Shown here in pieces: positions 37,669-41,619 of a stretch of DNA of 64,000 bases. The DNA lies in assembly GCF_900218015.1 (NCBI RefSeq), contig NZ_UFQQ01000007.1, forward strand, positions 1 through 64,000, given 5' to 3'. The stretch's first letter is position 1, and the number at the start of each line of letters is the position of its first letter. A program made the position numbers and the translations under genes. The stretch comes from Rhodopseudomonas pentothenatexigens (GTDB lineage Bacteria; Pseudomonadota; Alphaproteobacteria; Rhizobiales; Xanthobacteraceae). Below the pieces are notes generated by a model, which saw only the letters and a list, made by a program, of their open reading frames with translations, had not been told where the DNA came from and searched no databases.

Positions 37669-37745
37669 CGGAGTGTGGCTCAGCCCGGTAGAGCACTGCG
37701 TTCGGGACGCAGGGGTCGCAGGTTCGAATCCTGCCACTCCGACCA
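37669..37745 (+). tRNA. tRNA-Pro(CGG)
   Basis: A 77-nt cloverleaf with encoded CCA. The acceptor arms CGGAGTG and CACTCCG pair perfectly; the anticodon stem CTGCG/CGCAG encloses the loop TTCGGGA with anticodon CGG; the T arm contains GGTTCGAATCC. The 3' 45 nt, from the anticodon loop on, are duplicated at 41575-41619, so this is the attachment site of the adjacent island. The tRNA itself is intact. Confidence 0.95.
37701..37745 (+). repeat. Left attachment repeat (in tRNA-Pro)
   Basis: Positions 37701-37745, from the anticodon loop (TTCGGGA...) to the CCA end, are identical to 41575-41619 over 45 bp. Confidence 0.92.
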
Positions 37746-38144
37746 CTTAAACCGCTGATTTCATTGGATTTTTTAAAACATTCATTTTCTGCCCTGACTC
37801 TGGGGTACAGATTGGGTACAGAAATGCCGCGTCGGACTTTCCTCAGAGCATAAAAACGGTCTCGTAATCGAAAGTTTTGCTCGATTTGGCCATCTCTCTC
37901 TATGCCGCCAGCCGCAGTTAAGGCGGACTTCGGCGCGCAAAACGCAGGGTGCTCAGGTTCTCCAAAATATCTCGTGGAAGTCTAACGAGCCAAGTTTGCA
38001 ATTGCTCGGAACCCGCCGACGTGAATTCGTTTGCTTGAATTCGAGCAAGCCGTTTGCTTTTTCATGCTTGCGTCGATTCGTATGAGACGAGTGTAGGTCT
38101 TGTAGCGCGCTGGTTGTGCCCCTAGGATTTTTCCCGGGGGGAAG
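37746..38144. other. Left end of the island, non-coding
   Basis: About 400 bp without a supported gene. It contains the paired GGGTACAG octamers (37803-37821), then an AT-richer stretch that probably includes the promoter of the next gene. No integrase fragment is detectable in any frame. Confidence 0.5.
37803..37821 (+). repeat. Paired GGGTACAG octamers, left end
   Basis: Two octamers (37803-37810 and 37814-37821) spaced 11 bp start to start. The same pair with the same spacing and orientation recurs at 41470-41488. They may be integrase arm-binding sites. Confidence 0.6.
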
Positions 38145-39053
38145 ATGGCTACCATTCGGCTCGACGCCTTTTCTCAAGACACTATTGTCCTGCACTTCGG
38201 TGGTCCGGAGGGGGCCATCGATGCATACACGCTGGCGAACGCTCTAATTGGCTTCGCTGACACGGCCTACGCCGTTAACGCCGCGATCGATCCTGGCCAA
38301 GAAATCGAGATCATCGTCGAGGCGACGGGGCCGGGCAGCTACCGAACTGTACTTCGGAAACTGAGGAAGGGTTTCACCGGTGGTGTGCTGTCTGGCATTG
38401 CTGGCACCATCCTGTGGAACGTCGTGTCGAACGTCATTTATGACGCTACACTAAAGGGCGCGGATCCAAAGCCCCAGATCATTATCAACACGACAGAAGT
38501 CATCATTAAGCACGGGAGCGACACGATCATCGTCCCACGAGTTGTCCATGATGCGACCGAGAACGTGAAAAAGAATCCTGCGGTTCAAGAAGGAGTCAGA
38601 AAAACTTTCGACAGCCTTGAGGCGGATACTCACGTCAAGGAGTTTGGCATCACCGGCGGCATCTCTGATCCGCGCCCCCTTATCTCGATCCCACGTTCCG
38701 AATTTCGATTCGTGGTGACACCTATCGTGGAACTGGAAGAGCAGCCGCTGGAGCGCATTAGAAAAGAGCGCGCTCGCCTTATCATCTTGAAGGCTTGGCT
38801 GAATCACGCGCGACGCAAATGGTCATTTGAATGGAACGGTGTGCCCCTGTCTGCGCCTGTCGCAGATAAGGAGTTTCTCGATAAACTAGACCGACGCGAG
38901 CATCTACTGGGTTCGGGAGACGCGCTGGACGTTGAGATCACTTATCGTCAAAGGTTCGAAGCAGCCCTTGGCGTTTACGTGAATGATTCCGCCTCTTTCG
39001 TGGTCTCCCGCGTCATACGTCCTGTGCCTCGCGAGATGCAGAAGAGGCTGTAA
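38145..39053 (+). CDS. Island protein with glycine-rich hydrophobic segment, unknown function
   Basis: A 302-aa protein I cannot assign. Residues 1-75 are predicted beta-rich (TIRLDAFSQDTIVLHFGG...). Residues 76-98 form one hydrophobic, glycine-spaced segment (GFTGGVLSGIAGTILWNVV) that could insert in a membrane or pack like a glycine zipper. The C-terminal 200 residues look soluble. It is followed 51 bp later by the HEPN-motif gene in the same direction. Codon use is less GC-biased than the flanks. The pairing with a HEPN protein in a tRNA island suggests a defence or toxin role, by inference only. Confidence 0.75.
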   Translation: MATIRLDAFSQDTIVLHFGGPEGAIDAYTLANALIGFADTAYAVNAAIDPGQEIEIIVEATGPGSYRTVLRKLRKGFTGGVLSGIAGTILWNVVSNVIYDATLKGADPKPQIIINTTEVIIKHGSDTIIVPRVVHDATENVKKNPAVQEGVRKTFDSLEADTHVKEFGITGGISDPRPLISIPRSEFRFVVTPIVELEEQPLERIRKERARLIILKAWLNHARRKWSFEWNGVPLSAPVADKEFLDKLDRREHLLGSGDALDVEITYRQRFEAALGVYVNDSASFVVSRVIRPVPREMQKRL

Positions 39054-39104
39054 GTTATTGCAGTTTGAGAATGATCTTCAGGATTAGACTTTAGGAGAGG
39101 GGAT

Positions 39105-39819
39105 ATGGTGGCGGCGCCAGCGGGGGGACAACAGCCAGACCCTAATCAAGCATATTACGATAAGGCCAAACGCGCGCTCCAAGAACTGTTTGAGAAAGCG
39201 AAGGCGAAGAACGAACTGCATTTCGTTATGGCATTGATGCCCGAGTTTCGCGGCATGCAGGACGGCGGCTGGAATACGGGTGAAGAAGCCGTGCAAGCGT
39301 TCGATCAGTTCACGGACCACATAAAGTCGCTTGACCAAAACAGCGTCGTTCGTGTTCGCATCATTCTGGCGTTCTACCTGATGCTTTCGGAGTGCAGCGG
39401 ATTCTATGAGATACCCAAGAAACTGATGCTTACCGCGGAAGGGAAGGGCAACAATATCTGGCCTTTTCAGTCGCTCGTAAAGAAGCATGAGAAGACAGGT
39501 CGAGCTATCGACCCCAACGCCAACGCCATCATGAAGAACATGATGGGTCATGCCTACGACATCCAGCTTTTTGAGTTGTCTGAAATTCAGAGAGGCATTT
39601 GATCCCGACCTGAGAAACGCGATTGCACATGCGGACTACATTCTAGCTGCAGATGGAGTTCGCATCCGGAAGCGGAACGGTGGTCAACCTCGCGTTATCT
39701 CTTGGAACGAGTTTGATGCCCTCTTTTGTAAGGGGGCCAATCTATTCAGCTTCATTCGTCAATATGTGGATCAGTATGTGAAAAGCTACGACCGCCTAAG
39801 AAGATCCAAGCACAACTAA
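39105..39819 (+). pseudogene. HEPN-motif protein, interrupted by one frameshift
   Basis: Starts at ATG 39105 behind AGGAGAGGGG. Read straight it stops at 39602; removing one A in the run at about 39586-39588 joins it to the second frame and gives 237 residues ending at 39819. The join reads ELSEFREAFDPDLRNAIAHADY, containing the R-x4-H motif of HEPN RNases (R170 and H175 of the joined protein). HEPN proteins of this kind occur in abortive-infection and toxin systems. The insertion may be real inactivation, a sequencing error or recoding; there is no strong slippery site. Confidence 0.7.
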
Positions 39820-39940
39820 ATCACAACGAGCCGTTGACCGACTACACACTGTACTATGTTCCTCGGTCCGGCGCCTTCGGTTTTACGACTGGTGCTCCGC
39901 CGACGTAAAGCTGGCGTCATTTTGCCTGAAAGATTGGCCA

Positions 39941-40177
39941 ATGCCTGTTTCCCGGATCGAACAAATCGTCGGCGGCAAGGTGATGAAGTGTGTCGTTCCG
40001 AGCAAGGCTGGAAAGTTTCGCTGCTTTCCTAAGGGGATGAACACAGACCCGGTCTGGTTCACCACATTGGACGAAGTGGCCGATTATCTGCGAACGAACC
40101 TGCACTCAGGTGTACGGATGCAGCCAGGCGACAGCAAAATTGTCGACCATATCCATATCGATGGCCTGCCAAGATAG
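39941..40177 (+). CDS. Small island protein, unknown
   Basis: A 78-aa basic protein with no recognised domain (…DPVWFTTLDEVADYLRTNLHSG… is the most protein-like part). The ribosome site is weak and no homologue comes to mind, so the call rests on composition and position only. Confidence 0.45.
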   Translation: MPVSRIEQIVGGKVMKCVVPSKAGKFRCFPKGMNTDPVWFTTLDEVADYLRTNLHSGVRMQPGDSKIVDHIHIDGLPR

Positions 40178-40323
40178 CACGCAAGTTGGCGAGTTTATCG
40201 CGCTGGACAGGGTGTGCCGTGGCGCTCTTTCAATCATGCCAGAGCTATCGCAGCGCGTGACCACACGATAACGGAAACAAATATAGCACAGTTCGACAGC
40301 TCCACACGCGTGGGGAGCGGAGG

Positions 40324-41382
40324 CTACTTTTTCGTACGCGATTTTGCTCGCTGTCCTTTCAGCTTGCCGTAGGCAGATAGAATTTGCGCGGTGTCGGCTC
40401 CGTCGATTATGCAGTACCGCCGCGGCCGGCGCGGATCATAGGCAAGGCCCTCGGTCATTCGAACGACGGTGTTCTCTATTTTGTTGCAGTGCTGCACGAC
40501 GATCAAGTCGACCGGTTCTTCGAACGCGCGGATGAGTTGATCACCACGCTTGCCCATGTTTGCGGGATGTAGCGGGCCTGGCACGGACGGTCCTTTAAAG
40601 ATGAACGCCGTCGACGTTGGCTCTCCGTCGATCGTTAGGCGCGTGGTCTGAAGATCAGATTTTTCGCCGCCCCAATCCTTCGGCACATAGGGCTCCCCAA
40701 CAATGTCGGCGAACGCTTGCTTGACGTCCGCCTCGGGCATGGCCTCGATCGCTTTGAGTTCGGCCGCTGTTGGCTGAGGACTGCGCTCGATCCGTGCGAA
40801 CGCATCAATCTGCTGCGGATACACGCGAATTGAGGTCGCGATGGGCATTGGAAGCGTTCCAGCGCCTTCAATCTCTTCGCCGATAATGTAGGGGAAGATC
40901 GCAACCTTTTGGCCATGAAATTCGAAGTGGCCGGCAACAAGCATGCGCTTCCTCCCTTTCAAGACCGAGATCGAGGTTGATGAATAGAAATGATCGTTGC
41001 TCAACTCGCCGGCCATTTCGTATTCGACGGCTGCTAGGGGGATGGTCGCTCTAAGCGTGGCATTTTTAGCGGGCTTTCGTTCTTGCGCCCGTCTGAGGGC
41101 CTCAACTGCGCCGGAAAAGGTAAAGACGCCCCATAAGAACCCTAAGATGCGCTCACCCTCGACGTCTCTCTTGGCAACAATCTCGGTGAGGTTCGGAAAC
41201 TGGCCAGATCGCAATAGGTCTTCGGCCGTCGCTGCGACGTCCCTCATGGCATCGGCACGCTCGCCTGAACTGTGAACGAGCGGTTCTTGCGCCTGGGTCG
41301 GGAATTTGATGTTGGCGAGGAGACCCAAGCGCCGGCTGTTGAGATAGTATGGAAAAAGTCTGAGGCGCGCAAAGGCCGCCAT
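40324..41382 (-). CDS. Island protein, possible nuclease-like fold, unknown function
   Basis: A 352-aa protein. ATG 41382 has a perfect AGGAGG 7 nt upstream, which decides the start; longer in-frame starts would run through the GGGTACAG repeats. The N-terminal 240 residues are undefined. The C-terminal part (DLQTTRLTIDGEPTSTAFIFKG, then NMGKRGDQLIRAFEEPVDLIVVQHC and RRYCIIDGAD) resembles a family of bacterial proteins with an AFxxKGP..G motif that I associate with restriction-endonuclease-like folds. The usual acidic residue two before the Lys is absent, so catalysis is uncertain. Confidence 0.6.
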   Translation of the reverse strand: MAAFARLRLFPYYLNSRRLGLLANIKFPTQAQEPLVHSSGERADAMRDVAATAEDLLRSGQFPNLTEIVAKRDVEGERILGFLWGVFTFSGAVEALRRAQERKPAKNATLRATIPLAAVEYEMAGELSNDHFYSSTSISVLKGRKRMLVAGHFEFHGQKVAIFPYIIGEEIEGAGTLPMPIATSIRVYPQQIDAFARIERSPQPTAAELKAIEAMPEADVKQAFADIVGEPYVPKDWGGEKSDLQTTRLTIDGEPTSTAFIFKGPSVPGPLHPANMGKRGDQLIRAFEEPVDLIVVQHCNKIENTVVRMTEGLAYDPRRPRRYCIIDGADTAQILSAYGKLKGQRAKSRTKK

Positions 41383-41469
41383 GTAGATGCCTCCTAAAAC
41401 CATCGCGGCAAACACTTGACTCGTTCGGAACTTCGAACGCCCGTTGCCGGTCCCGTCGGAGATAATATC

Positions 41470-41488
41470 GGGTACAGTTTGGGTACAG
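41470..41488 (+). repeat. Paired GGGTACAG octamers, right end
   Basis: Octamers at 41470-41477 and 41481-41488, matching the left-end pair in sequence, spacing and orientation, 87 bp before the right attachment repeat. Confidence 0.6.
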
Positions 41489-41574
41489 AATGAACGTGAA
41501 CGAACCAAGAAAGGTGTACCCGAAGCGTGGCAAAAAGTGCTGCAATTACAGTGTTATATCGGTCGCCATTCTAT

Positions 41575-41619
41575 TTCGGGACGCAGGGGTCGCAGGTTCG
41601 AATCCTGCCACTCCGACCA
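41575..41619 (+). repeat. Right attachment repeat
   Basis: Exact 45-bp copy of the 3' part of tRNA-Pro, preceded by unrelated sequence, so it is not a functional tRNA. It marks the right boundary of the island. Confidence 0.92.

Follow-up and report, generated by a model that had tools for sequence, protein, structure and literature searches.

The stretch analysed here, 64,000 nucleotides of a Rhodopseudomonas pentothenatexigens contig (the window), contains an island of 3.9 kb that adjoins a tRNA-Pro(cgg) gene. We read this island as a cargo-shuffling cassette, with no recognised integrase, that carries two separable phage-exclusion genes of the prophage type, the second of them dead in this genome; we give this reading a probability of about 0.55. 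Gene 1 is an intact member of a family named LAPAL, whose relatives are found next to the repressor or integrase of temperate phages, and inside small transposons. Gene 2 is a broken copy of a HEPN-like gene. The two genes had originally been predicted to form a defence-like two-gene unit. A defence-like role agrees with their context, namely a match of gene 1 to a PADLOC family, the repressor/integrase region of temperate phages as a setting of its relatives, and a HEPN-type motif in gene 2. As a rule, the two-gene unit is not supported.

Organization of the island

The last 45 nt of the tRNA-Pro gene, which serves as the integration site, recur without mismatch at the far end of the island, and the GC content is 0.51–0.58 between the repeats, compared to 0.63–0.70 beyond them. 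The location of both genes in a tRNA island, part of the original prediction, is therefore well founded. The features are as follows, in window coordinates; numbers of the form L004 denote loci fetched for comparison.

37669–37745, + strand: tRNA-Pro(cgg), the integration site, whose final 45 nt form the left end repeat (ARAGORN, repeat search, Rfam tRNA)
37803–37823, + strand: GGGTACA doublet near the left end (repeat search)
38145–39053, + strand: gene 1, LAPAL_fam/PDC-S42, 302 aa, intact (ORF list, profile matches, AlphaFold2 model)
38382–38438, + strand: gene 1 segment, hydrophobic and with glycines, at residues 80–98 (hydropathy; predicted helix 83–103)
39105–39602, + strand: first open piece of gene 2, 165 aa (homologous to the intact L006, L004 and L070 genes)
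39550–39819, + strand: second open piece of gene 2, in another frame, with R-N-x3-H at 39613–39630
39820–39905, + strand: 3' end of the broken gene 2, back in the first frame (tblastn homology to intact relatives)
39941–40177, + strand: 78-aa ORF with no assigned function (ORF list; present in L004 and L070 too)
40324–41508, − strand: gene with no assigned function; its product has 394 aa in the ORF list and 352 aa in L004 and L070
41470–41490, + strand: GGGTACA doublet near the right end (repeat search)
41575–41619, + strand: right end repeat, 45/45 nt the same as the 3' end of tRNA-Pro

Islands of the same type are present in L004, L005, L006 and L070. The nearest is L070, which shares 97.9% DNA identity with window positions 38145–41619 over 3481 bp and is closer than those of L004, L005 and L006. 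GGGTACA doublets are found at both island ends in L004 and L005. In L006 the left end has a single copy and the right end a doublet; L070, which contains the right end alone, has a doublet there. We infer that these doublets are candidate integrase arm-type sites. The reverse-strand gene is a conserved island gene, with 90% identity to the L004 copy, and has no family in Pfam, PADLOC, NCBIfam or PHROGs (best match 0.22). The island contains no recognised integrase, and profile scans of its proteins (Pfam, PADLOC, NCBIfam, PHROG) detected no recombinase or transfer-gene family. The tRNA was the sole match in an Rfam scan. A promoter scan found none, against 2.1 expected, and terminator-like sites numbered 6, against 4.9 expected.

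Among eight loci fetched from the same genus, none is a clean empty site. In four of them, the tRNA-Pro gene and the left flank are syntenic at ∼90% with a single copy of the repeat, and ∼6 kb or more follow until the right flank resumes. The att-type end repeats at the 3' end of a conserved gene, the size of a few kb and the lack of recognised recombination genes resemble the cis-mobilizable elements (CIMEs) that a paper on streptococci describes as having att-type ends and cargo only (PMC7563491). Unlike a CIME, the island was not seen in tandem with an ICE or IME. A CIME moves when an ICE or IME supplies the integrase, and the tRNA-Pro cassette may likewise be mobilised in trans.

Gene 1 is a divergent member of the LAPAL family

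Gene 1 is open over 302 codons, as first described, and matches three named families over most of its length, contrary to the initial statement that neither protein could be assigned to a named system. The match to NCBIfam NF053583 (LAPAL_fam) has an E-value of 6.2e-47 and a score of 160.4 bits (cut-off 60), aligning residues 14–293 with profile positions 1–290 of 292. The others are PADLOC PDC-S42 (PDLC05015; 2.4e-15, profile positions 8–274 of 302) and phrog_3243 (7.3e-13). We take PDC-S42 to be a PADLOC family of phage-defence candidates; membership was judged by coverage and E-value instead of PADLOC's own thresholds. Nothing was found in Pfam at E≤1. The branch represented in the window is divergent, with 16–24% identity to aligned viral members outside its own lineage, and reads TLANALIGFAD at the site where other members have LAPAL.

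In draws of 297 genomes from the order and 398 from the phylum, which overlap and both include the window's own genome, 11 and 15 genomes, respectively, score above the LAPAL_fam cut-off. The gene 1 protein has no match in 15 other genomes of the genus. A tblastn search with gene 1 against phages and plasmids, as well as a megablast search with one viral LAPAL gene against E. coli genomes, returned none, and a profile search of PDB sequences with both families gave no meaningful match. In the literature searched, we found no relevant paper for LAPAL, PDC-S42, phrog_3243 or two E. coli protein accessions.

Predicted structure of gene 1

The glycine-spaced hydrophobic segment that was the basis for regarding gene 1 as membrane-active does exist. 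The highest 19-residue hydropathy, 1.49, is reached at residues 80–98. This segment is ordinary in strength and not striking alone: a value of 1.4 is reached by 218 of 549 mechanically called ORFs of 250–350 aa in the fetched loci. In the alignment, 28 of 35 LAPAL members have their hydropathy peak at this position and the other seven elsewhere (a 36th, L050, was left out as too short at 122 aa). The lack of the segment in these seven, among which are L045, L053 and L060 out of the four checked transposon copies, weakens a membrane step.

The AlphaFold2 model of gene 1 (pLDDT 77.6, pTM 0.60) consists of an N-terminal α/β part, a helix (residues 83–103) that spans most of the hydrophobic segment, and a β-rich C-terminal part; residues 77–86 are modelled poorly. 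A Foldseek search of the PDB gave no match at E≤0.001. The top probabilities among the best 50 of 757 matches belong to the mitochondrial single-stranded DNA-binding protein Rim1 (0.87, 0.77 and 0.77), and entries for HIN-200 proteins and tRNA synthetases recur; λ RexA is absent from these 50. All three recurring groups presumably contain OB folds, and the C-terminal part of gene 1, as modelled, is possibly OB-like.

Genomic settings of LAPAL genes

The LAPAL gene of one viral locus (L154) is present in 34 of 5426 E. coli genomes. Six of these 34 prophages were opened, and in each the gene immediately follows an S24- or XRE-type repressor on the same strand. The gene adjoins the integrase gene in Listeria phage vB_LmoS_188, Lactobacillus phage A2 and Bifidobacterium phage PMBT6, and is 1.4 kb from the integrase, with five small ORFs between, in Bifidobacterium phage Bbif-1.

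These settings are reflected in the neighbours of viral LAPAL genes in general. From 80 viral loci, seven without a LAPAL ORF by profile were removed, and the remaining 73 were reduced to 46 non-redundant copies; one of these has no upstream and one no downstream neighbour, leaving 45 on each side. The nearest upstream neighbour matches HTH_3 in 13/45 and Peptidase_S24 in 7/45, compared to 0/45 downstream for either (Fisher p = 8.9e-5 for HTH_3). Neighbours lie on the LAPAL strand in 35/45 cases upstream and 18/45 downstream. The neighbours within two genes that were taken for a PHROG count (143 of 177) fall in 194 PHROG families, the 25 commonest of which comprise regulators, repressors and a UmuD-like family besides unnamed ones. 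ORFs were called mechanically, such that some neighbour assignments may be wrong; L054, without an ORF call, was excluded, and for genomic loci 25 of the 69 nearest neighbours were dropped as short or shadow ORFs and two second neighbours were added.

A second setting is provided by transposons. An IS1595-type transposase accompanies LAPAL in 8 of 119 loci searched, some of which are redundant. In all four that were checked, inverted repeats of 24–40 nt (73–91%) bracket only LAPAL and the transposase:

L045, 7867–9841: LAPAL + IS1595-type transposase unit, with a perfect 8-bp target duplication on its flanks
L052, 6553–8755: unit of the same kind
L053, 7862–10073: unit of the same kind
L060, 7778–9857: unit of the same kind

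No target duplication was found for L052, L053 and L060. We conclude that LAPAL is an accessory gene able to travel alone, the repeats enclosing no cargo besides it.

NCBIfam describes LAPAL_fam as 'putative phage structural', a description at odds with most of the contexts above. Were it right, gene 1 would be a structural protein and the island a scrap of a prophage. Besides the name, the tail-morphogenesis family Phage_tail_S, found upstream of viral LAPAL in 3/45, points in this direction, and some LAPAL copies do sit among structural genes. The repressor/integrase setting in phages, with HTH_3 as the upstream neighbour in 13/45, argues against a structural role, as do the copies that are the sole passenger beside an IS1595-type transposase and the tRNA-Pro islands, whose ORF lists contain no recognised phage structural gene. 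In the E. coli prophages and in phages A2, vB_LmoS_188 and PMBT6, the gene lies in or beside the lysogeny region and not in a structural block. We therefore rejected this assignment as highly improbable for gene 1, and the 'structural' annotation of the family is probably wrong.

The closest parallel in position is λ rexAB, placed directly downstream of the repressor in the accounts given by PMC12894663 and PMC11077077. LAPAL occupies the same position, on the same strand, in the E. coli prophages. Unlike RexAB, LAPAL is one protein, and the copy in the window has no repressor beside it. No gene for a RexB-like, four-helix protein is annotated next to LAPAL in the E. coli prophage loci inspected for a partner.

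Other neighbours were noted in passing. A TIR effector family occurs among the LAPAL neighbours (L066), and, by eye, LAPAL is beside or between restriction-modification-like genes in L043, L061, L064 and L091.

Gene 2 is a broken member of a putative HEPN-like family

The ORF list contains gene 2 as the two overlapping pieces reported earlier, 39105–39602 and 39550–39819. Homology to intact relatives extends from 39105 to about 39905, beyond position 39819 where the gene had been thought to end, and a tblastn comparison with these relatives places frame breaks at two points. The RNAIAH motif (39613–39630) is encoded as described. The second piece is open across it in the sequence as it stands, and the gene has two breaks where the removal of a single base had been proposed. 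Gene 2 is a pseudogene in the window, judging by its reading frame.

Intact near relatives occur in Bradyrhizobium (L004 and L006), a viral contig (L070) and a genome locus (L089), with 80–91% identity to the L006 protein. More distant homologues are found in phage records, viral contigs and plasmids. The homologue in Microcystis phage Mwe-Yong1 (39.8% identity, 8e-56) is flanked by tail and capsid genes and lies on the opposite strand, and those in L090 and L097 are near AAA-type defence-like genes.

Several further features of these homologues were noted. By eye, those in L099 and L100 lie amid phage head and tail genes. Versions of ∼370–390 aa (L072, L073, L096, L097 and L098) seem to have a common C-terminal extension, which the 268-aa island versions lack. 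Two homologues have, at a distance of 5 nt (L089, 2824–4427) and 11 nt (L095, 6298–8795), a partner protein that ends in a hydrophobic tail at its C terminus; this partner in L095 itself has an R-N-x3-H stretch.

The gene 2 pieces reach the cut-off of no family in Pfam, PADLOC or NCBIfam, the NCBIfam and PHROG scans being of the open pieces only. The intact L006 homologue has no Pfam match, and none of ten homologues matches PADLOC. A hit of the second piece alone to phrog_5223 (0.0038) would make gene 2 a phage neck protein, an assignment that we rejected.

HEPN proteins, as characterised in PMC3710099, have an R-x4-6-H motif that ends helix 3, a polar residue after the arginine, and often an acidic residue in helix 2. 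An R-x4-H motif alone means little because it occurs in 900 of 2694 ORFs of the fetched loci (63 of 2694 for R-N-x3-H); what counts is its conservation in the 14 homologues. R171, N172 and H176 are invariant in 14/14 (8/8 and 9/9 alignment rows), down to 23% identity. In the AlphaFold2 model of the L006 protein (pLDDT 81.2, pTM 0.81), the motif at 171–176 closes a predicted helix (168–175), which may correspond to helix 3 of the HEPN fold. E96 is invariant in both alignments, and E102-x3-K106 is present in near relatives only.

The R-N-x3-H stretch might be a coincidence in an unrelated helical family, which would leave gene 2 outside HEPN. Consistent with such a coincidence are the missing profile matches of the pieces and their homologues, the acidic helix-2 motif, kept in part only, and the comparisons with known HEPN proteins: aligning gene 2 by hhalign with AbiV, with DUF4145 and with an NTase-HEPN protein yielded nothing, and no Foldseek match to the PDB reached E≤0.001. 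The invariance of R, N and H at a predicted helix end argues against it. Furthermore, the top probability among the best 50 of 299 Foldseek matches, itself non-significant, is to YutE (1ylm; probability 0.33, TMt 0.48, E = 2.2), which is counted as HEPN in PMC3710099. We consider a coincidence quite unlikely. Gene 2 resembles the HEPN toxins AbiV, DUF4145 and DUF86/YutE in the R-x4-H motif, the asparagine after the arginine and the predicted helix end, and differs from them in having no sequence-profile match to those tried. From two of the features described for HEPN proteins, the invariant R-x4-H and the polar residue after the arginine, gene 2 appears to represent a HEPN-like family and a candidate toxin of the RNA-cutting type.

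Pairing and cargo exchange

Among the loci fetched, gene 1 and gene 2 occur together only in one tRNA-Pro island lineage (the window, L004, L006 and L070). Within it, both genes are on the same strand with gaps of 51–54 nt in the window, L006 (54) and L070 (53). Of the 15 fetched loci with a gene 2 homologue that were searched, the 12 outside this lineage lack LAPAL in the DNA fetched, which is truncated for some. Of the observations originally set out to refute the proposal, the outcome is mixed: some homologues do occur as pairs, and the R-x4-H motif lies at the end of a predicted helix. In 265 genomes of one genus, presumably Bradyrhizobium, gene 1 is present nearly full-length at ≥58% identity in five (nine with any match), gene 2 in four, and both in two. 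An obligate pair kept across independent lineages was not observed, and we treat the pairing as an island association. A fixed toxin-antitoxin pair was likewise rejected, given the gene 2 homologues without gene 1 and the intact gene 1 beside a dead gene 2.

The related islands differ behind gene 1. L005 is the same tRNA-Pro island, homologous to the window from 66 nt before gene 1 (93% identity) to the 3' end of this gene. In place of gene 2 it has an unknown gene followed by an AbiV HEPN gene (PF18728, 2e-33; PADLOC AbiV, 1.4e-9), such that a HEPN toxin of the AbiV type is found in the same island type. The order in L004 is gene 1, a 175-aa gene, a relic of the gene 1 3' end (28/31 nt, E = 1e-7), and gene 2 just downstream of the relic. 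A type XI retron-like RT-protease (PADLOC, 5.5e-159; L006, 8025–9632) replaces the rest of the island in L006. The cargo therefore changes behind a constant gene 1.

Such exchange might alternatively reflect a modular two-gene system in which gene 1 stays in place as the trigger and a HEPN protein encoded downstream serves as an effector that can be exchanged. Gene 2 and AbiV would be such effectors, as might the 175-aa L004 protein. The same-strand gene 2 at 51–54 nt in the window, L006 and L070, and AbiV as the second gene after gene 1 in L005, would be expected from such a system, as would the 31-nt relic in L004, which looks as if modules of gene 1 plus cargo recombine. Elsewhere, LAPAL is followed by Abi_2 (3.4e-60) in L062, a family that we take to be HEPN, and a DUF4145 gene is two genes from LAPAL, on the other strand, in L007. 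The gene 2 homologues next to a hydrophobic-tail protein in L089 and L095 are also in line with it. The wider survey is less favourable. At least 6 of 36 genomic loci (35 and the window) have a HEPN-type gene no more than two genes away from LAPAL, namely the window, L004, L005, L006, L007 and L062, of which three are one lineage; this is a lower bound, drawn from the neighbours scanned and from 25 of 66 neighbour families. None of the 90 neighbours of viral LAPAL genes (0/45 upstream and 0/45 downstream) matches a HEPN Pfam family, the transposon copies have no HEPN partner, and most gene 2 loci lack LAPAL in the stretches fetched. We regard the modular system as unlikely. Nevertheless, the 51–54 nt spacing and the recurrent HEPN genes behind gene 1 in this lineage fit a functional pair better than chance, and this speaks against our preferred reading of two separable genes.

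Possible functions and implications

If the two genes are separable, gene 1 would be a single-gene exclusion protein waiting at or near the membrane. It would sense something made by an incoming phage, perhaps a nucleic acid bound through its C-terminal part, and then harm the membrane or stop growth, as the two proteins RexA and RexB do together. An intact gene 2 would act as a HEPN-type RNase that halts translation in the infected cell. Since gene 2 is a pseudogene here, only gene 1 can act in this genome, in a cassette that would swap its cargo beside a constant gene 1.

A broader and unlikely proposal joins these elements: LAPAL would be a widespread one-protein counterpart of RexAB that travels on three vehicles, the immunity region of prophages, IS1595-type transposons (with LAPAL as their only passenger) and integrase-less tRNA cassettes, and in the tRNA-Pro cassettes it would be a constant trigger with exchanged HEPN effectors.

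The analysis mainly confirms what was initially observed in this region and corrects its interpretation, in that a fixed pair is not upheld; known kinds of genes and elements gain members. The 'structural' annotation of LAPAL is called into question and a testable alternative is supplied. A candidate single-gene exclusion protein gains an evolutionary and regulatory context, and a HEPN-like family is added that is absent from the models of the libraries scanned. If the constant-trigger reading is true, the tRNA-Pro island would be a defence cassette that swaps its effectors with the sensor unchanged.
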